Below are positions 13,467-44,961 of a stretch of 47,407 nt of DNA, piece by piece. Positions within the stretch are counted from its first letter, which is position 1; each line of letters begins with the position of its first letter. Under the pieces are notes generated by a model. It worked only from the letters and a program-made list of their open reading frames with translations. It was not told where the DNA came from and did no database searches. The DNA comes from a virus. Where the stretch lies: IMG/VR virus record IMGVR_UViG_3300042904_000114, positions 1 through 47,407 of that record, one strand, 5' to 3'. The position numbers and the translations under genes were made by a program.

Positions 13467-14443
13467 TGGCGTACATCAGGAAGAGGGGCAAAGGGTACTA
13501 CGTCGAGATAAGAAAACTTGGCGTAGAAAAGAACGCCACGTTCGACAGTAAAACGGAAGCCGCGAAATGGGCAGCCGATACTGAAGCTTTAATTGTAGCA
13601 GGGAAGGCGAGCGGCATTCCAGATATTACGTTCGGGCAACTACTAAAGCGCTATTGCGACGAGGTAACGGTCAAGAAACGCGGGAAGAAATGGGAAGAGA
13701 CGCGCATTAAGCTTGTGCAGCGCGATGATTTGGCAAAGGTAAAACTGGCAATCCTCGACCAGCGTCACTTTGGAGAGTGGCGGGACAGGCGGCTTGAGTC
13801 GGTATCCGCGGCTAGTGTCAGGAGGGAATGGAACATACTCTCCGCAGCGTGCTCTACAGCGGTCAATGAGTGGAAGCTGATACCATCGCACCCGATGAAA
13901 GGAGTTAAGCGCCCAGAGGCTCCGCAGGCGCGAGACAGACGCATCAGCCAGAAAGAGATAGACGCGCTACTGTATGCGCTGGGCTATGACGGAAATACTC
14001 CGTCAACTATTACGGCACGAGTCGGGGCGGCTTTTCTCTTTGCGATTGAAACCGGGATGCGAGCGGGAGAGATTGCCGGTCTGAAGTGGGACAAGGTATT
14101 TCTTGAGAAGAGCTACCTGAAAACCTCTGGTAAGACGCGAGCAGCGTACCGAGACGTTCCGTTGTCTCCTGCGGCGATCAGAATCCTCAAGAGCCTGGAT
14201 GCGAGCGGAGAAACGGTATTCTGCCTCAACACCCAGCAGATCGACGCACTGTTCAGGAAGGCGAAGGCCAAAGCGCTAGTTGATGATCTGCATTTCCATG
14301 ATACCCGTCATGAAGCCATAACTAGGTTAGCAAGCAAGCTCCATATTCTGGAACTTGCCCGCGCGATAGGCCACAAGGATCTGCGGATGTTGCAGATTTA
14401 TTTTAATTCAACAGCAGAAGACGTCGCCAAGAAGTTGGACTAA
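13466..14443 (+). CDS. int: Tyrosine recombinase integrase
   Basis: 325 residues. An N-terminal arm-binding domain (MAYIRKRGKGYYVEIRKLGVEKNATF) precedes a core-binding SAM-like domain (about 54-150) and a catalytic domain with Arg199 (TGMRAGE), Lys223, His278-x-x-Arg281 (HDTRH), His303 (GHKD) and nucleophile Tyr312. All catalytic residues are present, so it should be active in site-specific integration and excision. It is preceded by attP and a probable excisionase. Its stop overlaps the stop of the convergent late operon, so the two transcripts run into each other. Confidence 0.96.
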   Translation: MAYIRKRGKGYYVEIRKLGVEKNATFDSKTEAAKWAADTEALIVAGKASGIPDITFGQLLKRYCDEVTVKKRGKKWEETRIKLVQRDDLAKVKLAILDQRHFGEWRDRRLESVSAASVRREWNILSAACSTAVNEWKLIPSHPMKGVKRPEAPQARDRRISQKEIDALLYALGYDGNTPSTITARVGAAFLFAIETGMRAGEIAGLKWDKVFLEKSYLKTSGKTRAAYRDVPLSPAAIRILKSLDASGETVFCLNTQQIDALFRKAKAKALVDDLHFHDTRHEAITRLASKLHILELARAIGHKDLRMLQIYFNSTAEDVAKKLD

Positions 14444-14751
14444 GAATTACATCCGCGCAGAGCCGCACGAAGTTTTATTTCACAACTCCACCTCTCCTCT
14501 ATTTCTGCCCTCAATGCCCTGTTGATTGTAACCGGACTATCACTCGGACTTACGCGATCCACAGCGTAACTATCCTTGCACTCATCGGGTAGCTTCACTT
14601 CGCACGGAACCGGTACGAGCTTTTCTATTACTTGCGTGCTTACTGTGGGTTTAGTGGCGCACCCCGCAATTAACAAGGCCGCGGCGCCCGCAGCAATCAA
14701 TTCCGCATACTTGTGCTGCCTTTTCTTTTCTTGTGTCGCTAAGCCGATCAT
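14440..14751 (-). CDS. Internal o-spanin (Rz1-like) lipoprotein reading frame
   Basis: 103 residues starting at the in-frame ATG at 14751, with AAAGGAG (14767..14761) nine bases before it. The product begins MIGLATQEKKRQHKYAELIAAGAAALLIAGC: basic region, hydrophobic core, lipobox with Cys as the acylated residue. The mature part (ATKPTVSTQVIEKLVPVPCEVKLPDEC...) contains extra Cys and Pro, as in many outer-membrane spanins. It would join the i-spanin encoded at 15733..16116 to fuse inner and outer membranes at lysis. Independent expression is predicted, not shown. Confidence 0.65.
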   Translation of the reverse strand: MIGLATQEKKRQHKYAELIAAGAAALLIAGCATKPTVSTQVIEKLVPVPCEVKLPDECKDSYAVDRVSPSDSPVTINRALRAEIEERWSCEIKLRAALRGCNS

Positions 14752-15363
14752 TCTCAGTTTCTCCTTTGTCTCGTCGGAGTGCTTATATCCCGCGTTCGAC
14801 GCCCTGGCTTTTTCAATGGCATCCGCAGAACGTTTCTTGCCTTTTCGCGCAGCGGCCATTTTTGCCCTTGTTTCGGCTGAGCAAACCTTTCCACGCTGAG
14901 CTGCCGCAATTTTCGCCTTCGTTTCTGGCGAACACCTAGCGCGTTCCATAGCCCTTGAGGCTATGGATATTTTTGCCCGCGTTTCTGCTGACTGCTTTGA
15001 TCCGCGTTTCGCGGCAGCTAATTTCTCAATCCATTCAACGGAACGCGGAGGACGCTGTATCCCGCGCAATCGATTCCCGACAGCCTCGCCAGCGAGTCTA
15101 CGAAGCCATCCGTAAGCTTTGTTGCCAGTGCATTGCCTGGCCATCCTGACTGCGGCAACCACAAGCCCCGGCACACCAGGATACATTTTCACTAGCAACT
15201 GATGAGCCACGTAATGCTCTTCGGCAGTTAACGACACGATATTCGTTTTTGCGTTATCCCCGCCCATACACTTCGGGATAACGTGATGCCGTTCTCGGTA
15301 TCCAGTAAGAACGCGGGAGCGCGCCCGCTCAACCAGCCTTATATAATGATTTTCGTAATTCAT
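14440..15363 (-). CDS. Homing endonuclease (HNH + NUMOD3) fused in frame to an o-spanin-like lipoprotein
   Basis: 307 residues. The first part is a mobile nuclease: RHHVIPKCMGG with NIVSLTAEEHYVAHQLLVKMY (HNH core, about 26-60), then several NUMOD3-type DNA-binding repeats (SAETRAKISIASRAM, SPETKAKIAAAQRGK, SAETRAKMAAARKGKKRS, SDETKEKLRMIG; about 118-208). The last third is unrelated: a hydrophobic signal ending in lipobox LIAGC followed by a short periplasmic tail, like the outer-membrane spanin Rz1. A good ribosome site inside the repeat region allows the lipoprotein to be made separately (14440..14751). The i-spanin is upstream. The fusion is plain in the sequence; the spanin role is inferred. 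Confidence 0.85.
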   Translation of the reverse strand: MNYENHYIRLVERARSRVLTGYRERHHVIPKCMGGDNAKTNIVSLTAEEHYVAHQLLVKMYPGVPGLVVAAVRMARQCTGNKAYGWLRRLAGEAVGNRLRGIQRPPRSVEWIEKLAAAKRGSKQSAETRAKISIASRAMERARCSPETKAKIAAAQRGKVCSAETRAKMAAARKGKKRSADAIEKARASNAGYKHSDETKEKLRMIGLATQEKKRQHKYAELIAAGAAALLIAGCATKPTVSTQVIEKLVPVPCEVKLPDECKDSYAVDRVSPSDSPVTINRALRAEIEERWSCEIKLRAALRGCNS

Positions 15364-20829: not shown

Positions 20830-22053
20830 CTAAATAATTACGACGCCACCGGTAGTCCAGTAAGCGACACGGCCATCGGTGAACTTGCTCGCGTTGAGCA
20901 TCGTGCCGCTCATCAGCAAAGTGCGGAGCGTTTCGCGATACGTGACCACGTCAGACCGCCCATAGAAGCCCATAGTCCCGTGATCGTATTGGTAATAGAT
21001 CGTACGGGCGATCCCCTTGGCAGCCATCGTAATCATCATGCGAGCCATCAGGATCGTGGCTTGCGAGTCGGTCAGCGTTGACGCGTCGCCACCGATGGGC
21101 GCTGACTCCGTATCCCAAGTTTCCTTAGAGGTGACGGCCGCTGTAGTCTTGGCAGCATTGATCCGGTCGATAATACCTGCCAAGTCTTTAACTTGGTTAA
21201 CTGAGGGCAGGTAGAGATGGACGGCGATGATGTCGACCCAATCTTTCATGGTCCCTGCTGCACCGTCACTGGCCGCCATCATGTCAGTGAAGTATGTCTC
21301 TGACGCGCCAGCAGCAGTCGCAATCCAACCTTGGATAGAAGGTGAAATTATCTTTGCCGTCGGGTCAATCGCTTTAATGATCTGATTCGCGCGCCGCACC
21401 ATTTGGGCTAGAATAGTTTTTGTGCCGCTGTAGAATCCCGTCAGGTTGACTTCATTCCCAACCTCGTAGTATTTGATTTTGCCCAAATACCGAGTGGCGA
21501 TAGTCGTGCAATAGTTATCCCACTTTGCAAGATCGGCCGGCTCCGCAGCCATGCCATAATTGCCAAAACTCCCTACGCCGTACGTCCCGTACGCGTAGGC
21601 ACTCGTCTCTGATGGCCGAGCCGATGCCCACGCAGGAGTCCCGAACAGGGTAAAAATAATATCTCGGCCTGCAGCGTAATGAGCATCCACCCACTGGTCG
21701 AGCTCTGTCCAGTCGTACAAACCCTCGGCATATTCAATTTTCTGCCAACGGCCTTTACCGTTTGCGATGTCGTGTGATCTAACAGTGCTGGCTGTGACGC
21801 CACTCAGCGTGTCGTTCGCTCGATCTTTAACACTCATGCCAAAGAAACTGGCCGGCATCGTTATCGGCGAAGTCGTCAGGGAACTGATCGGAAAGTTCGG
21901 AATTGCCAGCACGTCAGCGCCGAGTGAGGCAAAGTCAGCGTCCAGCATGAACGTCATGTTGGCGCCGCCGTCGTAGTGCGCAGCGTAATACTTCGTTGGG
22001 TAGGTGGCGCTTTTCAGGACGCCGCCTACGCTCGTCACTGCGTACTGTGTCAT
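20830..22053 (-). CDS. Tail spike or fibre tip with glycoside hydrolase (clan GH-A / GH39-like) domain
   Basis: 407 residues from the ATG at 22053 (overlapping the previous stop; a longer frame was rejected). A short N-terminal attachment region (about 1-65) is followed by a TIM-barrel-type glycosidase: SFFGMSVK, YDWTELDQWVDAHYAAGRDIIFTLFGTPAWAS, YYEVGNEVNLTGFY with acid/base Glu201, and ETWDTESAP with candidate nucleophile Glu316. It is probably a virion depolymerase that cuts a host surface polysaccharide. Placement after the tail-fibre genes supports this; substrate unknown. Confidence 0.8.
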   Translation of the reverse strand: MTQYAVTSVGGVLKSATYPTKYYAAHYDGGANMTFMLDADFASLGADVLAIPNFPISSLTTSPITMPASFFGMSVKDRANDTLSGVTASTVRSHDIANGKGRWQKIEYAEGLYDWTELDQWVDAHYAAGRDIIFTLFGTPAWASARPSETSAYAYGTYGVGSFGNYGMAAEPADLAKWDNYCTTIATRYLGKIKYYEVGNEVNLTGFYSGTKTILAQMVRRANQIIKAIDPTAKIISPSIQGWIATAAGASETYFTDMMAASDGAAGTMKDWVDIIAVHLYLPSVNQVKDLAGIIDRINAAKTTAAVTSKETWDTESAPIGGDASTLTDSQATILMARMMITMAAKGIARTIYYQYDHGTMGFYGRSDVVTYRETLRTLLMSGTMLNASKFTDGRVAYWTTGGVVII

Positions 22054-22604
22054 GCTATTCCTGGGTAGTGAATAATTGAATAACCGCGCAGCGTGATGGT
22101 CTGAGACAATGCAGGCGACCCCCACTTCACCCTGAACTCAATCGTTTGGCTGTACGACGTGTCGATCGTGGTGCTGACGCGCGCATTCGTCGATGCGGCA
22201 TAACTGGAGCCGTTAAATATCCCTTGCAACCCCAGGCTGCCGAGGTTCTGAATCTCGATCAGGAACTTGTTCTCTATAGTCGTGGTTAGCGGAATGCCTG
22301 ATATTTCAGAGCCACCAAACGTGATTGAGACTGTCTTTGTTCCGGTCGTCATCAATCCCCATTCTGCGACTATCGAAATCTTGCTGTTTGCCCCCATAAT
22401 GATGCCGGTCGAGACCGATGCAAGTACCATATATGTCTGGTCGTCGGCTGTGTTATCAGATAACCGAGTAACCGGGATGTATGACTGCCAGATATACTGC
22501 GGCGCGATATTGACGGCGCCCTCGATGGCGTCTAGGTTCCCGTCATCTTCAGCAAACGAACGGGGCCGCCCGAGCGAAGCCCGTCTGATCAGTTCAACTG
22601 CCAT
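22050..22604 (-). CDS. Tail fibre or spike-associated structural protein (184 aa)
   Basis: Beta-rich, Ser/Thr/Gly-rich protein (AEDDGNLDAIEGAVNIAPQYIWQSYIPVTRLSDNTADDQTYMVLASVSTGIIMGANSKISIVAEWG...). The composition and its place between the Tfa-like gene and the glycosidase gene suggest a minor virion protein at the tail end, perhaps joining the glycosidase to the fibre. No family recognised. Confidence 0.65.
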   Translation of the reverse strand: MAVELIRRASLGRPRSFAEDDGNLDAIEGAVNIAPQYIWQSYIPVTRLSDNTADDQTYMVLASVSTGIIMGANSKISIVAEWGLMTTGTKTVSITFGGSEISGIPLTTTIENKFLIEIQNLGSLGLQGIFNGSSYAASTNARVSTTIDTSYSQTIEFRVKWGSPALSQTITLRGYSIIHYPGIA

Positions 22605-27790: not shown

Positions 27791-28375
27791 TCAGTTTATG
27801 CTACGTTGAAATTTCTTACTAAGCCACACTTGAGGATTGGCGATCAAGTCAGTCAAGTAATCGAAGCCGGTATCTGTCGGGTATCTCTTCTTTTGCTGTG
27901 CGGCGTTCAATCTCATTGCGGGCGCCCTCTTTAACCCGTAGGCGCTCGTTTCGCACTTCAGCTTGACGCTCCCCTCTTGCCCCTCGATCCCGATTGCCAT
28001 CATATCCATATAGCCGCGCCAGCAAAGCTGAGGCGTTCCGACCATAACGAAGGATTCGTCCAAAGGCGCAAAATACAACTTTGCTGCCCTTCCCCGGTAC
28101 TCTTCAACGTCGCCCACGGCCAGCGCAAGGTAAGACGCCTGGGCCAGGTTTAACGTGAACTCTAACGACTTTGACTCAACTCCTTCCGATTCTTCGAGAG
28201 GGCTTATTGAACCAATGCTGCCCAGACCCAGCCAGTCTTGGTTATTCCAGTTTATTGTCTGATTGGCGGAGCAGATATATTGCGTACCGCTCAGGAATTG
28301 AAGCTCGATAAAATAAACTGTGCGCGTTACAGGCTTCTCAAGCTCGGCCTGCTGCCCGGCAGATAAGGTGGTCAT
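27791..28375 (-). CDS. Minor tail / tail hub protein (DUF2163-type, lambda L-like position)
   Basis: 194 residues. SAGQQAELEKPVTRTVYFIELQFLSGTQYICSANQTINWNNQDWLGLGSIGSISPLEESEGVESKSLEFTL and KKRYPTDTGFDYLTDLIANPQVWLSKKFQ are typical of the DUF2163-like siphophage tail hub protein. It sits just before the NlpC-like and J-like genes, as in the lambda L-K-I-J series. The start overlaps the HNH stop (ATGA), so the nuclease gene was inserted exactly at the gene boundary. Confidence 0.75.
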   Translation of the reverse strand: MTTLSAGQQAELEKPVTRTVYFIELQFLSGTQYICSANQTINWNNQDWLGLGSIGSISPLEESEGVESKSLEFTLNLAQASYLALAVGDVEEYRGRAAKLYFAPLDESFVMVGTPQLCWRGYMDMMAIGIEGQEGSVKLKCETSAYGLKRAPAMRLNAAQQKKRYPTDTGFDYLTDLIANPQVWLSKKFQRSIN

Positions 28376-28878
28376 ATCGTGCAGCCTTTATGCATTTCTC
28401 TCTTGCGTTGCAGATACACCTGATGCGCTTCCTCTGGGCTTTTATACTGCCCGAGATAAAACACTTCTCCACTGAGCCTCAGTTGCGCTCTAAATGTTCC
28501 GCTTCTGGTTAATGTAACGCCAAGCACGCCTGTAGACTTTGCAGTTCTATTTGCCCGTATCCTGTTTTGGGAATTCTCGGCCAATCTCACATCTCTTAGA
28601 TTCGCAATGCGATTGTTAAGCTTATTGCCATCGATGTGATCTATGACATGTTCCGGCCATTTGCCGTACATATAAAACCAAGCCAGTCTGTGAGCGGAGT
28701 GCCCATCATTGTTGATGCGTATCACATAATAGCCTTTGTGTGATACACACCCGGCCAATGTGCCGCACGTTTTTCTACGGTGCCTGTCAACTAACCAGAC
28801 GAATTGACCAGTACTCGGATGGTAATAAAGGATTTCTTTTAGATACGCGTGCGTGAGTGTAGAATTGAGCCTGCTCAT
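28372..28878 (-). CDS. HNH homing endonuclease with AP2 DNA-binding domain
   Basis: 168 residues. Nuclease core: GTLAGCVSHKGYYVIRINNDGHSAHRLAWFYMYGKWPEHVIDHIDGNKLNNRIANLRDV (HNH_3, His-Asn-His), then an AP2-like domain (TGVLGVTLTRSGTFRAQLRLSGEVFYLGQYKSPEEAHQVYLQRK). Free-standing homing enzymes of this type spread by cutting phages lacking them. It lies between two tail genes. TATAAT at 28947..28942 and a perfect 10-bp hairpin at 28912..28937 lie in its own leader. Confidence 0.92.
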   Translation of the reverse strand: MSRLNSTLTHAYLKEILYYHPSTGQFVWLVDRHRRKTCGTLAGCVSHKGYYVIRINNDGHSAHRLAWFYMYGKWPEHVIDHIDGNKLNNRIANLRDVRLAENSQNRIRANRTAKSTGVLGVTLTRSGTFRAQLRLSGEVFYLGQYKSPEEAHQVYLQRKREMHKGCTI

Positions 28879-28953: not shown

Positions 28954-29565
28954 CTAAACACGAAAATCTTCTATTAAATCAAGAACAAACCCATCAACCA
29001 CTGCCGCTGAATAATTCCAGCCGTATTTCGAGTCAACGCGACGAAATAGAGCCTTTGGATGGTCCCAAGTTACGGACTCGCCAGAGAGGAACGCATTGCG
29101 CAGAGGTGGCTCGGTAGTAACAGAAATTACACCAGAGCCATCGCTTGTCGCATCTTCCACGACCATCACGACCTGTTGAGTCAGCAGCGAACCGATGCCA
29201 AGATAATCACCCTGCAGGAGCGTCTTGCCGTTCTGCCCGCTGGCAACTATCTCAAGGCTAGTTGCGCCTTGTGCCGCGCCAGAGTTTAGAGTCATTGTGC
29301 CGCGCATCGTGCCGAGCGGGACGGGACGGCCATGGTTCCATAGCTCCAGTTGCCGCGTCTTGCCGCGCAATGAGATGCCGAGCGCTTGCCAGCCGCCACC
29401 ATTTGCCGCGAGCCCCGGCGCTCCCTCAAGCGTAACAGCCCACAGCGGACCAGAGCCTTCTACCGCTTGAGCACCGAAAGCAGAACGGAACTCAATATCG
29501 TTCCGTTGCTGAGCCCAGGTGCAACGCGCCACGCCAAGGGTAGAGGGAAACGTGATAACGCTCAT
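28954..29565 (-). CDS. Minor tail protein (203 aa)
   Basis: MSVITFPSTLGVARCTWAQQRNDIEFRSAFGAQAVEGSGPLWAVTLEGAPGLAANGGGWQALGISLRGKTRQLELWNHGRPVPLGTMRGTMTL... is a beta-rich distal tail protein often found directly after the tape measure in siphophages (lambda M position). Its start overlaps the tape-measure stop by four bases. Confidence 0.75.
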   Translation of the reverse strand: MSVITFPSTLGVARCTWAQQRNDIEFRSAFGAQAVEGSGPLWAVTLEGAPGLAANGGGWQALGISLRGKTRQLELWNHGRPVPLGTMRGTMTLNSGAAQGATSLEIVASGQNGKTLLQGDYLGIGSLLTQQVVMVVEDATSDGSGVISVTTEPPLRNAFLSGESVTWDHPKALFRRVDSKYGWNYSAAVVDGFVLDLIEDFRV

Positions 29566-33282: not shown

Positions 33283-33747
33283 TTAAATTAAAGTACCGGG
33301 AATACCTTCTAAAATTGCATAACCGACTGTGTACGAAAGAACTATCTGCCCAAAATAAACATCATCTTCGTCCGGCAAGACGTCGGTATTCGTCCGGGGA
33401 GGGGATAACGATTTAATGCCGGGTATCTGGGCGAGTAATGCTGGAAACGTCAGTTTTGTTTGTATCTCCGTGCCCATCGCATCAAACTGCTCTTCAATAG
33501 TGGCCATATCCCCATTGCCTGGTAGCCGCAGTCGCCCCTCAATTAAGAGGTCGCAAGCGAACAACTGAACGCTGGACGAATTGACGGAGGCCGCTACCGG
33601 ATCATCCGATGGCGTATGCACCATCAGATACGGCCAAAGAACGCGATCGGGCTCCTTCCGCTGCTTAAGTACAGTTTTCCAGGCAATAGGACTCCTGGAG
33701 AGGATCGTCGCAACGGCCTCTCTTATTTGCTGCCTTGCATGGGTCAT
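33283..33747 (-). CDS. Tail terminator-like protein (gpU position)
   Basis: 154 residues: MTHARQQIREAVATILSRSPIAWKTVLKQRKEPDRVLWPYLMVHTPSDDPVAASVNSS...GTEIQTKLTFPALL...IVLSYTVGYAILEG. Mixed alpha/beta small protein of tail-terminator type, which caps the finished tail. The N-terminal THARQQIREAV pattern is common in this family. It overlaps the connector gene stop by four bases. Confidence 0.75.
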   Translation of the reverse strand: MTHARQQIREAVATILSRSPIAWKTVLKQRKEPDRVLWPYLMVHTPSDDPVAASVNSSSVQLFACDLLIEGRLRLPGNGDMATIEEQFDAMGTEIQTKLTFPALLAQIPGIKSLSPPRTNTDVLPDEDDVYFGQIVLSYTVGYAILEGIPGTLI

Positions 33748-34334
33748 AGAAAGTCGAGCTTGAAGTCGTTGAGCTTGTCGATAACCGAGAATGGGATCCG
33801 CGAAGGGGTAATGCCGCTTTCAGACTGCGGCTGAAAGTTCATCCAGTGCCCAATGAGCGTTAGTAGCGCTTCGATAATCCCTGGCTCAACATCGCTTGCG
33901 AGTGGGCCGTAGCCTGCCGTGTATTGAATCCGCACCGCATTCTCTTCTGCCCGCGAAGTAGGCCAAGAAACGCCGTATGCCTTGCGAACGTGAGGAATGA
34001 ATGAGTATGTGTCTAGCAGATAATCCGATGCGCTGAGCGTCTGTTCAGCGCCGTCAGCGTCAATGTATTTCACTGACACCACTGTCAAAGCGGAAGGCAA
34101 TTCGTGCCTGCCAACGAAACAATCCCACCTAATCTCGCGCGTCTGGGTGATAAATGCGCGGCCCGTATGCGTTTCTGCCCACTTCCTCGCCACTACAATC
34201 CTGCGAGCTATAAGCGCATCGCTCACTGTGTCGGTTGCTTGAATCCCAAGATATTCTTTGACCTCAGCAAGAGACACGGGCTCTTTGAGAGGCGGCGTGA
34301 TGAGCTTGAACGGACTCTTTTTTACGTACGTCAT
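33744..34334 (-). CDS. Head-tail connector (gp6-like)
   Basis: 196 residues: PFKLITPPLKEPVSLAEVKEYLGIQATDTVSDALIARRIVVARKWAETHTGRAFITQTREIRWDCF is the N-terminal helical domain of the gp6/phiE125 gp8-type connector; the remainder is beta with a C-terminal helix. A ring below the portal. Its start overlaps the previous stop. Confidence 0.85.
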   Translation of the reverse strand: MTYVKKSPFKLITPPLKEPVSLAEVKEYLGIQATDTVSDALIARRIVVARKWAETHTGRAFITQTREIRWDCFVGRHELPSALTVVSVKYIDADGAEQTLSASDYLLDTYSFIPHVRKAYGVSWPTSRAEENAVRIQYTAGYGPLASDVEPGIIEALLTLIGHWMNFQPQSESGITPSRIPFSVIDKLNDFKLDFL

Positions 34335-34633
34335 AGATCGTCCCGCACCGTGACAGTGATCAGGTTTTGGTTACGTAATATGTATCCGCTTGAGTCGGTA
34401 ATCTTGACCTCGAAGGCCATCCCTGGCGCGTAGAGATCGCCATCCACAAACTTGTAACTGCACGTTCCAGCCGCAGCGCTAACAATCGTCATGGTCTTGT
34501 CTGCAATAGTGCCGACCGCTTCCTGCCAACGCAGCTTGACCGTGGATCCGGTCAAGTCAATAACCGCGCCAGCGTCATCCGTACAGGCGACGAGCAGGCT
34601 CGATGCCGTATCGTTTGCAACGAAATCGCTCAT
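34331..34633 (-). CDS. Small Ig-like virion protein (100 aa)
   Basis: MSDFVANDTASSLLVACTDDAGAVIDLTGSTVKLRWQEAVGTIADKTMTIVSAAAGTCSYKFVDGDLYAPGMAFEVKITDSSGYILRNQNLITVTVRDDL is an all-beta domain similar to BppU N-terminal/Ig-like domains that decorate phage structures. It follows the 860-residue protein and may anchor or accompany it on the head or neck. Confidence 0.7.
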   Translation of the reverse strand: MSDFVANDTASSLLVACTDDAGAVIDLTGSTVKLRWQEAVGTIADKTMTIVSAAAGTCSYKFVDGDLYAPGMAFEVKITDSSGYILRNQNLITVTVRDDL

Positions 34634-37216
34634 TTAATTGAACCTGACGGTTACAGATTTGGTGCGCTGGAATTTGGCGGTTCGTTCTACTGTTGACGCA
34701 ATCGGTTGCGCAAGGCCCGATGTGCCGCTGGCTGATAATGTATCGTTCGCGTTTGTCACGGCGAGGCTACCGGTCACAGTTGTTGTGCCGGACGCCGCCA
34801 AGGTGTCGTTTGCGTTTGTGTAATCGAGCGATCCAGTTACGGCGCTGCTACCAACCGAGCCGGATGCGGCCAACGTGTCATTGGCATTTGTTACCGCAAG
34901 CGAACCTGTTACGGTTGTTGACCCTGAAGCCGCGAGAGTGTCATTTGCATTTATCGTGGCGAGGCTGCCGACGACAGTTGTTGAACCGGACGCGACTACT
35001 GTGTCGTTAGCGTTCGCTCTGGCTAGGCTGCCAGTTACCGTCGTGGACCCTGATGCAGCTACGGTATCATTGGCATTGGTGTAGGCAAGCGAGCCGGTAA
35101 CAGGATTGCCTACAGAGCCGCTGGCGGCCAGCGTATCATTGGCGTTGGTTGTTGCTAACGTCCCGCCTGTACCGTCATAGACAGAAACATCTCTGAACTT
35201 TGCAGCCAGCCCATTGCGACTTAGAGAGAGATACCCGCCCCGGTAAGTGGCGTCCGAGATGGTTTTTTCGGTTACGTCGTTCCCGCTGCCGTCTATCTGT
35301 GCAATCTTTACGGTTGTGGCTGTGACGGTAATACGAAAAGTCTTTTCTGCTCCGTCTGCAATAGTGCTGCCTGAAGTTGCGCCCTGGCTTACCGCTGCGC
35401 CGCTAGGCGCCTTCTTCCATATGCTAACTTCGCCATTTTTTCTTAGGAGAAACGCATACCCATACTCAGCCCCTGATGCGTTCGTGAACGGGTTGTCGTC
35501 TACGCCGAGAAAGACGCCGGCCCATCGCGTTCCGTCACCTCCGTTCGCCGAATCGAATGTAACCTTGAAGTCCAGCACGAAATTCGACGGATTTGCTACC
35601 GGGCAGAGGAAGCCCATCAAGCAACCGCGGAATGTCGTCTCGTTGGACGAGTATCCCCAATAGTCCGGAGAGAAGAGCTGGCCCCTGCTTGCCGCAGTCA
35701 GCAACTCGTCGGACGCGATCATCCCGTGCTCCCATGTCTGGGAAGCAAAGTTGTCTGTCGTCCGTAAAGCTGTTGTCGCCTTTAAATACTTGGTGTCATC
35801 CGAGAAAATTCCGTTGACACCGTACCCCAGCCATGTATCACGAGCCTTGCGCGTGTTAAGTGTCCAAACCGCGACCTTCAGGCCAGCGCCGAGATACGCT
35901 GAAACTTGTGCGCTTGATGTGCCTGTCCCTACCCCTACCCAATTAACCCCGTAACCTGAAACTGTAGCAGCACTCTCCGCTCCTGCCGTAGTCAGGAACA
36001 TGGATTTGTAGGCCGACGCGTTGATCGTCGCCATGTGTCCCGACGTGAACGACGAGACCACCGCCTGGTTGCCTGCAATACCTCCGTTTGATAGCGCAGT
36101 TAACAGAGCCGAGACGCTAGAATCCTTTACCTCTATCGAAAATAGTGCCGAGCCTGCATAAGTTGCCAGCACATCCGACAGAACAGGAGGCGTTTCTGTG
36201 TCAGGATAACCTCCGCCAAACCACGCGCCGCCCGTTGGGTCAATTACAACTGAGCCGTCCGTCCAGTTGGTTAGCGTCTTGCTGGAAACGTTACCTGTTG
36301 AATTGGTCGTGCGGTTTACAGTCGTGTCGTGCATCAACACGACTTCGCTTGTACTGAGCGTCTGTGAATCTACGTCGAGGAAGTTTTCACCAGCCGCAAC
36401 GGATGCAGCAAAAGCAGTGTACGACTCTTCCGGCCACATGAATTTATTGCCGGCATGAGCAAAGTACAAAGGCTCAGACAGCAAATCCATGTCCAGCACG
36501 AACGAACCGGCCGCACATATATCGTTTGCGTTTGTTACTGCAAGCGAACCGGTTATGGTCGTCGTGCCGGATGCGGCTAGTGTGTCGTTTGCGTTGGTAT
36601 AGGCAACGGTCCCAGTAGTCCCTGAAACCGGATCATCCGCGCTGAAGTTGTCAAAATGAAGATACTTGCTATCTGCCTGTCCAGATACAATATCGTATAA
36701 CCGTACCCCAGCCTTACCGGCTGCGGTATGTGGAGAGGATGAATCTGTTTGCGTGATTACTAGGGCGTCATCTAAATACCCTTTAATTGTCGTGGTAGCT
36801 GAGCCACTTACTTCTATCTTAATATTCCGCGTTGTGCCAGCGGAAAGGGAGACTGTGTAGGTGGAACCTAGTTGAGTAAAAGACCCTGCACCATTTTGCT
36901 TATATAACCGCAAGCCGGTGCCCGCGAAAAGGGCGGCGAAATACCCTCCTGTAGCCGTTGTTGCGCCCCTGGCGAACACGCCAGCGGAGACCCCGGAATC
37001 AGTGCTTGCTATATAAATGTCGGCTGAAACGCTATAGTCCGCACTAGCCGGATTGCCCGCGTTCCAGTAATACTCGATGGGGTTAGGTCCGTCAGACCTA
37101 GCTCTTCCGGCTGCTGTCAGTATCAGTTTTTGCGCGGCTACTGCTCGTTTAGTCCATGACGAAGAAATCTCCGCCCCGGCAGTGCCGGTAAACGAATCAG
37201 AAGCGAATTGCGCCAT
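34634..37216 (-). CDS. Large multi-domain virion protein: LamG-like, GDPD-like and 21-residue repeats
   Basis: 860 residues. Two LamG/concanavalin-like segments (about 1-195 and 485-680) flank a glycerophosphodiesterase-like domain (about 245-480) with H254, PEES (262-265), D281-x-D283, MHDTTVNRTT (H296, D297) and later SIEVKD. The Arg of the usual HRG motif is replaced by Ala. Two 21-residue repeats (about 201-240) and seven more (685-831), each TGSLA-x-TNANDTLAASG with a short linker, form a rod-like tail; the last 29 residues are basic. Gene position in the head-neck module implies a virion surface protein that binds or hydrolyses a glycerol-phosphate-containing host polymer. This is inference. 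Confidence 0.75.
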   Translation of the reverse strand: MAQFASDSFTGTAGAEISSSWTKRAVAAQKLILTAAGRARSDGPNPIEYYWNAGNPASADYSVSADIYIASTDSGVSAGVFARGATTATGGYFAALFAGTGLRLYKQNGAGSFTQLGSTYTVSLSAGTTRNIKIEVSGSATTTIKGYLDDALVITQTDSSSPHTAAGKAGVRLYDIVSGQADSKYLHFDNFSADDPVSGTTGTVAYTNANDTLAASGTTTITGSLAVTNANDICAAGSFVLDMDLLSEPLYFAHAGNKFMWPEESYTAFAASVAAGENFLDVDSQTLSTSEVVLMHDTTVNRTTNSTGNVSSKTLTNWTDGSVVIDPTGGAWFGGGYPDTETPPVLSDVLATYAGSALFSIEVKDSSVSALLTALSNGGIAGNQAVVSSFTSGHMATINASAYKSMFLTTAGAESAATVSGYGVNWVGVGTGTSSAQVSAYLGAGLKVAVWTLNTRKARDTWLGYGVNGIFSDDTKYLKATTALRTTDNFASQTWEHGMIASDELLTAASRGQLFSPDYWGYSSNETTFRGCLMGFLCPVANPSNFVLDFKVTFDSANGGDGTRWAGVFLGVDDNPFTNASGAEYGYAFLLRKNGEVSIWKKAPSGAAVSQGATSGSTIADGAEKTFRITVTATTVKIAQIDGSGNDVTEKTISDATYRGGYLSLSRNGLAAKFRDVSVYDGTGGTLATTNANDTLAASGSVGNPVTGSLAYTNANDTVAASGSTTVTGSLARANANDTVVASGSTTVVGSLATINANDTLAASGSTTVTGSLAVTNANDTLAASGSVGSSAVTGSLDYTNANDTLAASGTTTVTGSLAVTNANDTLSASGTSGLAQPIASTVERTAKFQRTKSVTVRFN
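34722..35164. repeat. Seven 63-bp-class tandem repeats in the 860-aa gene
   Basis: DNA encoding the seven C-terminal TNANDTLAASG repeats. Most units are 63 bp (21 codons); two carry short extra linkers. Related units occur again at about 36490-36620. The copies differ by many silent or single changes, so they are diverged rather than recent. Confidence 0.9.
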
Positions 37217-37229
37217 GAGCTACTGCTTT

Positions 37230-37622
37230 TTAGGGGTTAGCTTCGGTAATAACAAAACCGGAAACGCTAACGGGCTGCGTAGCTGCAATGGTTGTAGAAA
37301 TCAGGTTTAAATCGGATCCACTGGTGCCTACGTTGCCATCGATAACTGCTGTGCCACCTGAAGTCACGACACGGAACCATGTAGCCGTCCCTGAAGCGTT
37401 CGCGCTGGAATCCTGAGTAAATGCGTTGGCCGTCAGTACGCCACCAGAAGCAGCCGGCGCGAACGTGGCGCTACAGGCTAATTCAGCCAGCAGAGTCGTT
37501 GCTGTGCCACCAGTCGCCGGCCGAGTGCCGTCGTAGATCCTAACTAAACCACTTGAGCCGACCGCCGCAGTGATTGCGTCCAACATTGCGTTACGTGCTG
37601 CTGTGCTATAGGCGAGTGCCAT
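37230..37622 (-). CDS. Conserved virion protein (130 aa)
   Basis: MALAYSTAARNAMLDAITAAVGSSGLVRIYDGTRPATGGTATTLLAELACSATFAPAASGGVLTANAFTQDSSANASGTATWFRVVTSGGTAVIDGNVGTSGSDLNLISTTIAATQPVSVSGFVITEANP is beta-rich and resembles a widespread phage structural protein (YSTAARN, LRIYDGTRPATGG) of the head-neck region, perhaps capsid decoration. Its start overlaps the stop upstream by one base. Confidence 0.75.
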   Translation of the reverse strand: MALAYSTAARNAMLDAITAAVGSSGLVRIYDGTRPATGGTATTLLAELACSATFAPAASGGVLTANAFTQDSSANASGTATWFRVVTSGGTAVIDGNVGTSGSDLNLISTTIAATQPVSVSGFVITEANP

Positions 37623-37852
37623 TATTTATTTACTCCTTTGCGTTTTTCACGACGGGAAACTGTGAGCGTTGTGCTCGGCTGCGGATTGTCTGAAACGATC
37701 TGAGCTTGCGCGACAGGCTCCTCTACCTCGACAGCGAGGCCGCGGTTCAGCCAGTGATTTGCTGAAGCGTCATTCAACGAATGCAAAGAGCCCTCTTTCA
37801 AGGGCTCTCCGTTTCCGCCAATAACGTCCTGTAAGAGACGTATCGTTTTCAT
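37622..37852 (-). CDS. Small head-region protein (76 aa), unknown
   Basis: MKTIRLLQDVIGGNGEPLKEGSLHSLNDASANHWLNRGLAVEVEEPVAQAQIVSDNP... A short beta domain (VxLLxDV...GxVxxLxxxxAxxLxxRGxAxxV pattern) with a basic tail. This pattern is common in small phage head proteins near the capsid gene. Function unknown. Confidence 0.65.
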   Translation of the reverse strand: MKTIRLLQDVIGGNGEPLKEGSLHSLNDASANHWLNRGLAVEVEEPVAQAQIVSDNPQPSTTLTVSRREKRKGVNK

Positions 37853-38292
37853 TACACCACTTGAACTACGGTGCTCAGGTCGTTCGCGCTTGCCGGGTTG
37901 TGACGAGCGTCGAAGCCCAGAACGACCGCTGAAGCATCCGAAGTAGCAACACCAACAGTCATCACGAGACGCGCGTACGGCTTTGACGTGTAGGCCACGG
38001 AAGGCACGAAGTTCATCACGGCTTGCTTGCTGTCGCCGCTTGCCTTCAGGATCTGGGTGAGAGCGGTGCCGACATCAGTTGCATTGGTGCCGCTCGAATC
38101 GTCGGCTTGCTGCCACTTGGCGTCCAGAGTTGCAGAGGCGCCAAGCGTGCCGGTCGTAATAACAGCCATCAGACGCGTGTACAGGGTCAGGTCCACCCAG
38201 CCGGAATTTTTGGCTCCGGTCGTGAGTGCGCCAGGATTGATAACCGCAGCAATCGCAACACGATCGCTCGGCAGGGAATTTACATTCGCCAT
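37852..38292 (-). CDS. Virion protein, probable head decoration (146 aa)
   Basis: MANVNSLPSDRVAIAAVINPGALTTGAKNSGWVDLTLYTRLMAVITTGTLGASATLDAKWQQADDSSGTNATDVGTALTQILKASGDSKQAVMNF... all-beta, Ala/Thr-rich, with YARLVMTVG. It lies next after the capsid gene, where decoration proteins usually are. It resembles a frequent phage structural protein but the exact role is not proven. Confidence 0.65.
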   Translation of the reverse strand: MANVNSLPSDRVAIAAVINPGALTTGAKNSGWVDLTLYTRLMAVITTGTLGASATLDAKWQQADDSSGTNATDVGTALTQILKASGDSKQAVMNFVPSVAYTSKPYARLVMTVGVATSDASAVVLGFDARHNPASANDLSTVVQVV

Positions 38293-38349: not shown

Positions 38350-39705
38350 TTAGGCGCGATCAGCCAGAGTTGCGAAGAAGCCGCGAGCCGCAGTGCCGGA
38401 CTGGAAGCCGGTGACGGTCGAATTCCACCAGGGCTGACCACCAACGCGCAGGATGAAACGGAACGCGGTGATGTCGTAGTCAAACCAGATATGGATAGAC
38501 ACGTCAGAACGGATGCCGCCAGCCTTGACCACGGTCAGGTAGTTGGAGAGATCGCCGAAGATGATGTCGCCTTTGTCGCCCAGCGCTTTACAGGCTTCGG
38601 TCGGGATAACCGGACGGCCCAGCAGTAAGCCGTAAGGCGAGGCAGACAGACCGCCAGGAGGCATGTAGGCAGGAACGGCGGTGCCGGTGCCCGGAAAGCT
38701 CATGGTCATCAGCTGTTGCTCGACATCGGGATTCACGAGCCACTTTGCTTTGGTGCGCGCGGCAGGAGTCAGGGCCGAATACAACTTGACGATGTTGGTG
38801 AAGTTGATCGTGTCAGCGGTTTGGCTGGTCTCTTTTGCGACAACAACTGTGCCAGCGGAAGGGATAATTCCGAGAGGCATGCCCGCGCCTGTTCCGTTGA
38901 TGATCGCATCGTTCAACCTGAAGCCGATCTTTTCCGGAGCTTTGCGGCCAACGTAGCTGCTCATACCGGCTGCGTCTTGCAGGAGTTCGTCGGTCAAGGG
39001 AACCAAGGCAATAATCTTGTTCGCTTTGACAGTCTTCTCAGCCAAGGACGGTTTGGACTGGGTATGAACGCCAGCCTCTGATTCCCAATAGGCCTGGATG
39101 CCACCGGATGATTGCCATGCGGTTGTTTCGTCCACCGGGAAGGTCATGCTGTTGCCGGAGGTCACTTGCTGATCGGTCATGGCAATAAGCGACTCTTCAC
39201 TGCCCATAACTTTGCTGACGATTGTGCTGCGGAAGTCAGGAGGAATTCCGAAGCCGCCATCGCCGCCATTGCCTTCCGTGCCGTAGGTGCTCGGCGTTGC
39301 GTTGGCGATAAGGCGAGGATCAACCTGGCCGCCTTTGCGCGAAGAGGCAACAACAGAGACCAGGAACTCCGCGTGGGACCGGAAGCCCCATTTGTTCGCA
39401 TCTGCGCTGCGCGGTTGAGCGTAAACTTTATAGCTCGACTTGGCCGCGGCTTGAGGCTCGTCCGCCACTTCGGGGTTGCTCTTGCGACCGGCAGGCGCGG
39501 CCACTTTGGCGTTGATTGCGTCGAGTTGTTCGCGGCGGGCAATGTCAGCCTCGACGTTCTCGAAAGACGCGAATATTTCTGCGATTTCTTTCTGTTCATC
39601 AGCAAACAGTTCGCGGCTCTCGGCGTCGGCGCGAGCTTGTATGTTGTTGGCCGAGTCTTTCAACTCGATCAGCTTGTTTTGGAGTTGATCCAGCGTTTCG
39701 TTCAT
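38350..39705 (-). CDS. Major capsid protein, HK97 fold
   Basis: 451 residues. An N-terminal coiled-coil delta domain (MNETLDQLQNKLIELKDSANNIQARADAESRELFADEQKEIAEIFASFENVEADIARREQL, about 1-110) is followed by the HK97 core (GFGIPPDFRSTIVSKVMGSEESLIAMTDQ... PLTDELLQDAAGMSSYVGRKAPEKIGFRLNDAIINGTGAGMPLGI ... FGDLSNYLTVVKAGGI). The delta domain is presumably removed by the head protease encoded upstream. It is flanked by two terminator-like hairpins. Confidence 0.95.
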   Translation of the reverse strand: MNETLDQLQNKLIELKDSANNIQARADAESRELFADEQKEIAEIFASFENVEADIARREQLDAINAKVAAPAGRKSNPEVADEPQAAAKSSYKVYAQPRSADANKWGFRSHAEFLVSVVASSRKGGQVDPRLIANATPSTYGTEGNGGDGGFGIPPDFRSTIVSKVMGSEESLIAMTDQQVTSGNSMTFPVDETTAWQSSGGIQAYWESEAGVHTQSKPSLAEKTVKANKIIALVPLTDELLQDAAGMSSYVGRKAPEKIGFRLNDAIINGTGAGMPLGIIPSAGTVVVAKETSQTADTINFTNIVKLYSALTPAARTKAKWLVNPDVEQQLMTMSFPGTGTAVPAYMPPGGLSASPYGLLLGRPVIPTEACKALGDKGDIIFGDLSNYLTVVKAGGIRSDVSIHIWFDYDITAFRFILRVGGQPWWNSTVTGFQSGTAARGFFATLADRA

Positions 39706-44217: not shown

Positions 44218-44961
44218 TTATCCGAACATCAGCAGTTGGTCGTTCGCGTGGTCGTTTCTCTTTTTGAGGTTGCACGCTCTGCAAAGCAACTGAGTATTCC
44301 GATACGAGTGCTCGCCACCTACAGATAAGGGGATGATGTGGTCTAGCTCAGGAGCTTTTGGTTTGTATGTTCCTCTGTCTGCGAGCTTTGTCTTGATGCC
44401 GCAACACTTACACTTCCATCTATCTCTATCGAACACCTGGATAGGGTCAACAGGCTCTATCTTGGCGTTCCGCTTCCTAGCTTTGTATGCTGATGCTTTA
44501 GTCCTAAGCCTTATTGCGTTCCGTATCAATGAACATGGATGGCAAAACGTATACGGGCTTACCTTCCCTATTACAGGGCAGTAAACAGAGCCGCAATAAC
44601 CGCAAGTAACTTCTCTTGCTCTATGCTTGTGGTATTGGATCGATCGTTCGCGCCGCGTTTCCGTTAACGCTATTAAATAATCAGGAGTCCTGCGCTTTGC
44701 GTTCGCCTTCCGTTCTGACTCTCTTCTACGTTCAAGGTTAAGCGCCCTCCACTGCACCTCTCTTGCCCTGAAACTTTCTATGTTCGCGTTACGCCGAACT
44801 GTTTCAGCTTCTGAAAAGCAGGGTTTGCACCACGACTTCAGCCCATCCTTGTTTCTTCCCTTCCCGAATCTATCAGCCGACTTAATCTGTTTGCATCTAG
44901 CGCATTGCTTCGTCAAAATGAAGACAATAGAAGAACCTTCCGATATAATCGGATTAGCCAT
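44218..44961 (-). CDS. Zinc-ribbon HNH endonuclease (247 aa)
   Basis: AAGGAG precedes the ATG at 44961. N-terminal zinc-binding segment CARCKQIKSADRFGKGRNKDGLKSWCKPC; middle basic helix; second Cys cluster CGYCGSVYCPVIGKVSPYTFCHPC; C-terminal HNH core (DRDRWKCKCCGIK...APELDHIIPLSVGGEHSYRNTQLLCRACNLKKRNDH). Probably a mobile homing nuclease. It lies between the usual terminase-linked HNH gene (45032) and terS. Confidence 0.88.
   Translation of the reverse strand: MANPIISEGSSIVFILTKQCARCKQIKSADRFGKGRNKDGLKSWCKPCFSEAETVRRNANIESFRAREVQWRALNLERRRESERKANAKRRTPDYLIALTETRRERSIQYHKHRAREVTCGYCGSVYCPVIGKVSPYTFCHPCSLIRNAIRLRTKASAYKARKRNAKIEPVDPIQVFDRDRWKCKCCGIKTKLADRGTYKPKAPELDHIIPLSVGGEHSYRNTQLLCRACNLKKRNDHANDQLLMFG

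Follow-up and report, generated by a model that had tools for sequence, protein, structure and literature searches.

A candidate host-recognition fibre with a lectin-GDPD-lectin tip and a conserved C-terminal peptide, encoded beside the neck genes of a siphovirus-like phage

The window analysed here is the whole of IMG/VR virus record IMGVR_UViG_3300042904_000114, a viral DNA of 47,407 bases. Its annotation gives a siphovirus gene order, with genes for a terminase, a portal, a Clp-type protease, an HK97-type capsid, a head-tail adaptor, a tail terminator, a major tail protein, a tape measure, distal tail proteins and an integrase. Among the head and neck genes lies a gene for an 860-residue protein (hereafter the slot protein), and this locus raises the question of what the protein does at this position and how it would be held on the virion. 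Comparison with other phages suggests that the slot protein is probably a host-recognition fibre that is anchored on the virion through its C-terminus, directs its N-terminus outward and exchanges its tip as a cassette, and that probably sits on the neck. In the proposed mechanism, the C-terminal peptide of the slot protein would bind p100, the product of the next gene, and p100 would sit on the neck, or less likely on the tail or capsid. The 21-residue repeats of the slot protein, termed NAND repeats, would form a stalk, and its tip, in which a glycerophosphodiesterase-like (GDPD) barrel stands between two lectin-type domains, would bind a phosphodiester-linked polymer on the host surface. 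Provided that the altered active site of the barrel is still functional, the tip would cut this polymer and thereby bring the phage nearer to the cell.

Variable slot, conserved C-terminal peptide and exchange of tips

Relatives of the window phage were gathered with its major capsid protein as query. The stretch between the genes for p76 and the head-tail adaptor varies among these capsid-related phages. In loci L140, L144, L147, L157 and L164, which have neck genes of the window type, this stretch (the slot) contains one to five small genes, a gene for one large protein and the p100 gene. In L142, L143 and L146, the slot contains nothing, p100 is absent, and the neck gene is about 30% identical to that of the window. 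A search with p100 gave 22 loci, 17 of which were counted as having window-type neck genes; these 17 include related contigs and do not represent 17 independent events, and most of the relatives are metagenomic. The contig of L181 ends inside p100, so that its neck gene is not seen. In all of the 17 loci, the protein encoded before p100 ends like that of the window, with the consensus VERTA...FQRSKSVTVRFN. Conservation extends over the final 20-30 residues of slot proteins that have different N-terminal domains and repeats: across 14 of them, including that of the window, the mean identity is 57% for the last 22 residues and 31% for the first 200. The N-terminal domain of the window protein is 19-31% identical to those of other slot proteins, with no relation found by blastp. 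Over the last 12 codons of the slot genes, the proportion of synonymous differences (pS) is 0.77, which is near saturation, and that of nonsynonymous differences (pN) is 0.21, giving a pN/pS ratio of 0.27. This result indicates that the peptide is under purifying selection and is not merely carried along.

In most phage fibres known, it is the N-terminus that is conserved and holds the fibre. The conserved N-terminus and variable C-terminus of an N-terminally anchored fibre or tailspike are not found here; the reverse is seen. The conserved C-terminal peptide, the presumed adaptor gene p100 and the variable slot, all recognised by comparing sequences, are new relative to an earlier reading of the window (the original prediction). 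Among the other slot proteins, that of L147 (L147:11458-14055, 865 residues) has a middle part that looks propeller-like, by eye only, and repeats of another type (CTQANASGTGSI). A cut relative of it with the same repeat type CTQANASGTGSI is encoded at L141:11481-13241.

Relatives with the full architecture of the slot protein are encoded in L004 (75% identity), L005 (49%) and L006/L007 (47%). The phages that carry them are of another type, and their C-termini are unrelated to that of the window protein. The L004 gene adjoins genes for a PHROG 332 portal and the large terminase subunit (TerL), without a match to the head genes of the window. The window and L004 proteins are 91% identical in the first lectin domain, 91% in the GDPD barrel and 79% in the second lectin domain, so that residues 1-680 are the part shared at 79-91%, and only 27% identical in the C-terminal part. 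The L004 and L006 proteins, in contrast, are 49, 50 and 57% identical in the same three domains and 84% identical in the C-terminal part. These opposite patterns indicate that the tip moves between phages, while the C-terminal part stays with the phage group. The combination of a conserved C-terminus with differing N-termini makes the C-terminus look like an anchor and the N-terminus like a swappable tip. In L004 and L006, the GDPD gene has homologues of two other window genes, p184 and p431, next to it; in the window, these two are located downstream of the gene for the central tail fibre. The window copies of p431 (20830-22125) and p184 (22050-22604) are 46-51% identical to the L004 and L006 genes and represent a second shared set at a different site.

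Domains of the slot protein and the altered GDPD site

The slot protein is encoded by a single open frame on the minus strand, with its ATG at 37216; the plus strand is interrupted by many stops, and the strand of the first reading is corrected accordingly. The original prediction described the protein as a chain of lectin-type, GDPD and 21-residue repeat parts, with a GDPD barrel within residues 245-480, and both descriptions hold. Pfam detects PF03009 (GDPD) at residues 254-475 (E 6.2e-16, 59.7 bits against a cut-off of 23.6), and this is the only Pfam domain above its cut-off in the protein. The predicted structure matches solved GDPDs with a TIM-barrel fold, residues 247-510 aligning with 2pz0 (Z 15.6, 189 residues, 3.1 A) and 5t9c (Z 15.6, 200 residues). 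Residues 1-197 match lectin domains of phage tips and CBM66 at Z 18-22, the best match being the central fibre of Mycobacteriophage Douge (8zdp, Z 21.8, 180 residues, 2.3 A), followed by the lectin-type domain of the Douge baseplate (Z 19.6) and CBM66 4azz (Z 18.3). Residues ~489-684 match legume and ERGIC-53 lectins at Z ~15. This likeness of the lectin-type domains and the GDPD barrel to phage host-binding proteins supports the interpretation of residues 1-680 as a tip. The first lectin domain is also found in loci of Nitrosovibrio, Massilia and Burkholderiales; its presence in betaproteobacterial genomes is only a hint about the host.

The active site was compared with those of seven other phage GDPDs by alignment. 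His254, Asp283, His296, Glu362 and Lys364, and with them both catalytic histidines, are in place in the window protein. The original prediction that the arginine of the HRG motif is replaced by alanine is correct: Arg255 is Ala in the window (HAG), L004 and L006, and Gly in L005. In all four family members compared (window, L004, L005 and L006), this arginine is lost and Glu281 is changed to Asp, whereas both residues are kept in 7/7 of the other phage GDPDs. The full catalytic signature HRG...ExD...HD...E.K is therefore absent from the window protein. As 42% of positions are invariant across the four members, retention of the five site residues is only mild evidence for selection. The protein is, on this alignment, a GDPD homologue for which the case as a working enzyme is lowered by the altered signature. 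Ligand binding by the GDPD tip is likely, and catalysis may equally well be retained or lost, so that the tip poses the question of whether it is a binder or an enzyme.

Tips of this kind have been seen in other phages. The central spike of Staphylococcus phage phi812 and phage K (PDB 9eul; C-terminal domain of gp155, 9f5m) likewise has a tip protein with a GDPD barrel, and the phi812 spike is the top Foldseek match of the window model (E 1.4e-9), with lectin and GDPD aligned in the same order. The phi812 spike differs, however, in the orientation of its domains, which do not superpose (root-mean-square deviation 19), and it forms the central tail spike of a phage that infects Gram-positive bacteria. 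Its HRG and ExD motifs, as seen in Kayvirus Zeno, are intact, unlike those of the window. To our knowledge, it has neither repeats of this kind nor a docking peptide or a stand-alone gene of the BppU type. PHROG 16641, a tail fibre family, covers residues 227-671 of the slot protein, and the unit of GDPD and second lectin domain recurs in Xanthomonas phage XacN1 and in Streptomyces phages. Over window residues 249-680, this unit is 35% identical in XacN1 ORF384 (2823 residues) and PHROG 16641; in ORF384, it differs in forming the C-terminal end of a very large protein, with an intact HRG and no NAND repeats. A GDPD in a baseplate is named for Lactobacillus phage Ld17 in a title cited in PMC6116005. 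Thus, the combination that the original prediction did not recognise is familiar as far as the lectin/GDPD tip of phi812 and the unit of XacN1 are concerned, and unfamiliar in its C-terminal docking and swappable slot.

Gene p100 and the candidate sites of the fibre

The ATG of p100 directly follows the stop codon of the slot gene. The p100 model is a beta-sandwich with a predicted local distance difference test (pLDDT) score of 90. Its best solved matches are baseplate proteins: the TP901-1 BppU chain 4v96_AA (Z 11.5, 98 residues, 2.2 A), the crystal structure of the TP901-1 BppU N-terminal domain (3uh8, Z 10.6) and an 80alpha baseplate chain (Z 10.6). A neck chain of Sf14 (9c39_J, Z 8.8) and a connector/neck chain of Bas63 (Z 8.3) match more weakly, and Ig-type domains unrelated to p100 match at Z 7-8. 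Window p100 reaches 19.0 bits against the cut-off of 23.1 for BppU_N (PF10651), and 14/18 members of its family match (best E 2e-7). A p100 profile gives nothing significant against PDB sequences, the relation being visible in the fold only; tblastn against 50,697 phage records gives no match at the sensitivity used, and a profile search of 399 genomes from the order to which the Massilia locus belongs gives none either, although this search had no positive control and is uninformative. p100 is predicted to have the N-terminal domain fold of the BppU proteins of TP901-1 and Douge. It differs from them in that it is a separate protein of ~100 residues in the loci compared, rather than the N-terminal part of a longer protein, with the binding part in another gene and the site beside the neck. 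In Douge, the BppU N-terminal domain and the lectin-type carbohydrate-binding module of the central fibre bind host glycans (PMC13033339).

Distant p100 genes (34-40% identity) in L192, L193 and L194 also follow genes for large repeat proteins, which share a C-terminal peptide of their own. These fibres end with KNEAxFAExKIIKGxFV. In L194, which is T4-like, the order is a 917-residue repeat protein, p100, a gp13-type adaptor, a gp14-type closure protein, a sheath stabiliser and terminase; in L190, the portal gene comes next after p100. The L194 fibre gives nothing against the PDB by phmmer. Because p100 adjoins neck genes in two unrelated phage types, the neck gains support as the site of p100. 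In T4, the whisker gene wac precedes gp13, which is the place of the fibre and p100 genes in L194. The L194-type fibre and p100 may have replaced the whisker gene. A fibre gene adjoins neck genes for T4 fibritin (wac) and the neck whiskers of Sf14 as well, and the whiskers of Sf14 are joined by an adapter (PMC11821841). The window protein differs from these in sequence and in its model, which has strands in the repeats and neither a long helix nor a long trimeric coiled coil with a foldon.

We regard a side fibre of the baseplate or tail tip as a rather unlikely arrangement. p100 would then bind the distal tail protein as in TP901-1, and its gene position would be only historical. The baseplate BppU matches of p100 are consistent with it, as are the position of the L005 GDPD gene near genes of tail-fibre type and the p184 and p431 homologues in L004 and L006. 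The distal tail gene of the window (28954-29565), however, is 5 kb from p100, and three phage types have p100 next to neck genes or the portal gene. It is also unlikely, and slightly more so, that the slot protein decorates a vertex or the surface of the capsid, with p100 as a capsid-side base, even though the slot directly follows the genes for the capsid protein, p146 and p76, p130 belongs to a virion-protein family whose Milano member is annotated as virion-associated, and phage 7-7-1 has capsid fibres whose genes are not known (PMC12796354). Relatives with 65-70% capsid identity and another neck gene lack p100, which thus tracks the neck type, and p100 adjoins gp13 in T4-like contigs. That the C-terminal peptide has no docking role, and is conserved only through its adjacency to p100 and upstream recombination points, is very improbable: it does end only a few bases from where p100 begins, but the pS and pN values of its codons indicate selection on the protein. 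An auxiliary enzyme that serves host phosphate metabolism or turns over the wall during infection, as a prophage GDPD gene was once read as a phosphorus-acquisition gene (PMC9030533), is hardly credible for a protein with two lectin-type domains, repeats, a place in the structural operon, a conserved partner gene and a match to tail-fibre PHROG 16641.

Several points weigh against a C-terminally docked neck fibre. BppU proteins of known phages belong to the baseplate and not to the neck. L142, L143 and L146 are not strict empty sites, and the relatives yielded no clean empty site with a neck gene of the window type. The AlphaFold model, based on 10 aligned sequences, is fair for the domains and poor for linkers and repeats, with a mean pLDDT of 58.8. 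The lost arginine and the Glu-to-Asp change may mean that there is no catalysis. The location among head and neck genes in the original prediction is borne out by the gene order; of its proposal of a surface fibre on capsid or neck, a virion surface protein is likely from the sequence, and the p100 context speaks for the neck. It is possible, and we suggest this only tentatively, that the slot protein represents a fibre class not seen in cultured phages, in which the C-terminus is plugged into a stand-alone BppU-type neck adaptor common to siphoviruses and T4-like myoviruses, and in which unrelated phages exchange tips; the tip in the present case, lectin-GDPD-lectin with an altered active site, would recognise a phosphodiester polymer. 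If so, a small docking peptide at the C-terminus, together with an adaptor dedicated to it, would give a simple rule for spotting receptor-binding proteins in unannotated phage genomes. Such a rule would show which tips a phage lineage has tried, and would point to candidates for the genes of neck appendages, whose assignment is difficult in most phages.

NAND repeats, partner gene p130 and other features of the window

The original prediction described a rod of nine repeats. Nine NAND copies are present, at residues 208, 229, 691, 714, 735, 756, 777, 801 and 822, mostly at a spacing of 21 residues; they do not form one rod, because two separate the first lectin domain from the GDPD barrel and seven follow the second lectin domain. 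The self-similarity at 21 residues is 2.27, compared with a maximum of 0.74 in 500 shuffles. No tandem repeat passes in the DNA of this region with TRF, indicating that the copies have diverged. The repeats also matched long, repetitive toxin chains among PDB sequences; these matches were rejected as compositional similarity between repeats.

The core DNA pattern of the NAND repeat was found in 36 uncultured viral contigs. When a contig has at least five in-frame copies, a p130 homologue lies in the same stretch in 16 of 19 cases and elsewhere on the same contig in two more; it is found in 0/16 contigs with one copy or none. This result indicates that NAND-repeat proteins and p130 are a recurring pair. 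In L025-L060 and L061-L139, a PHROG 3758 (p130) gene nearly always lies a few genes upstream of those for the NAND-repeat proteins, often in the portal-capsid block. Podovirus-like uncultured phages (L032, L044, L050, L062, L067 and L072) have the same repeat, p130 upstream and, in many cases, a lectin-like N-terminus by eye. Their proteins differ from the slot protein in having other C-termini, several are encoded between portal and capsid genes, and no p100 is seen.

Table 1. Positions of the slot protein, its parts and the flanking genes in the window
Feature	Position	Strand	Description	Basis
Slot (fibre) protein, 860 residues	34634..37216	-	Lectin, repeats, GDPD, lectin, repeats, putative docking peptide
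First lectin domain	36626..37216	-	Residues 1-197, concanavalin/CBM66-type, presumed outer tip	Structure comparison
Linker	36497..36622	-	Residues 199-240, two NAND repeats
GDPD barrel	35792..36478	-	Residues 247-475	Pfam, structure comparison
Second lectin-type domain	35165..35752	-	Residues 489-684	Structure comparison
Seven 21-residue NAND repeats	34712..35170	-	Residues 683-835, presumed stalk; low model confidence
C-terminal peptide STVERTAKFQRTKSVTVRFN	34637..34696	-	Residues 841-860, presumed docking peptide	Conservation, pN/pS
p100	34331..34633	-	Stand-alone BppU N-terminal-type beta-sandwich, presumed adaptor	Fold, profile, gene neighbourhood
Head-tail adaptor (neck)	33744..34334	-	Downstream flank of slot	PHROG 442 and PF05135
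p130	37230..37622	-	PHROG 3758 virion structural protein, recurring partner gene of slot/fibre proteins
p76	37622..37852	-	Last head-side gene, upstream flank of slot
p146	37852..38292	-	Small gene after capsid gene, upstream flank of slot
Major capsid protein	38350..39705	-	Query for finding relatives

The features are listed in Table 1. Predicted promoters in the window show no excess and predicted terminators are about as frequent as in shuffles, with no separate unit seen, and a tRNA scan of the window found none. Genes for HNH or homing endonucleases lie at 28372-28878 (inside the tail operon), 14440-15363 (beside the integrase) and 44218-44961 (upstream of the small terminase). A 579-residue protein encoded at 16116-17855 matches phrog_3677, which PHROG calls a protease (8.7e-62).
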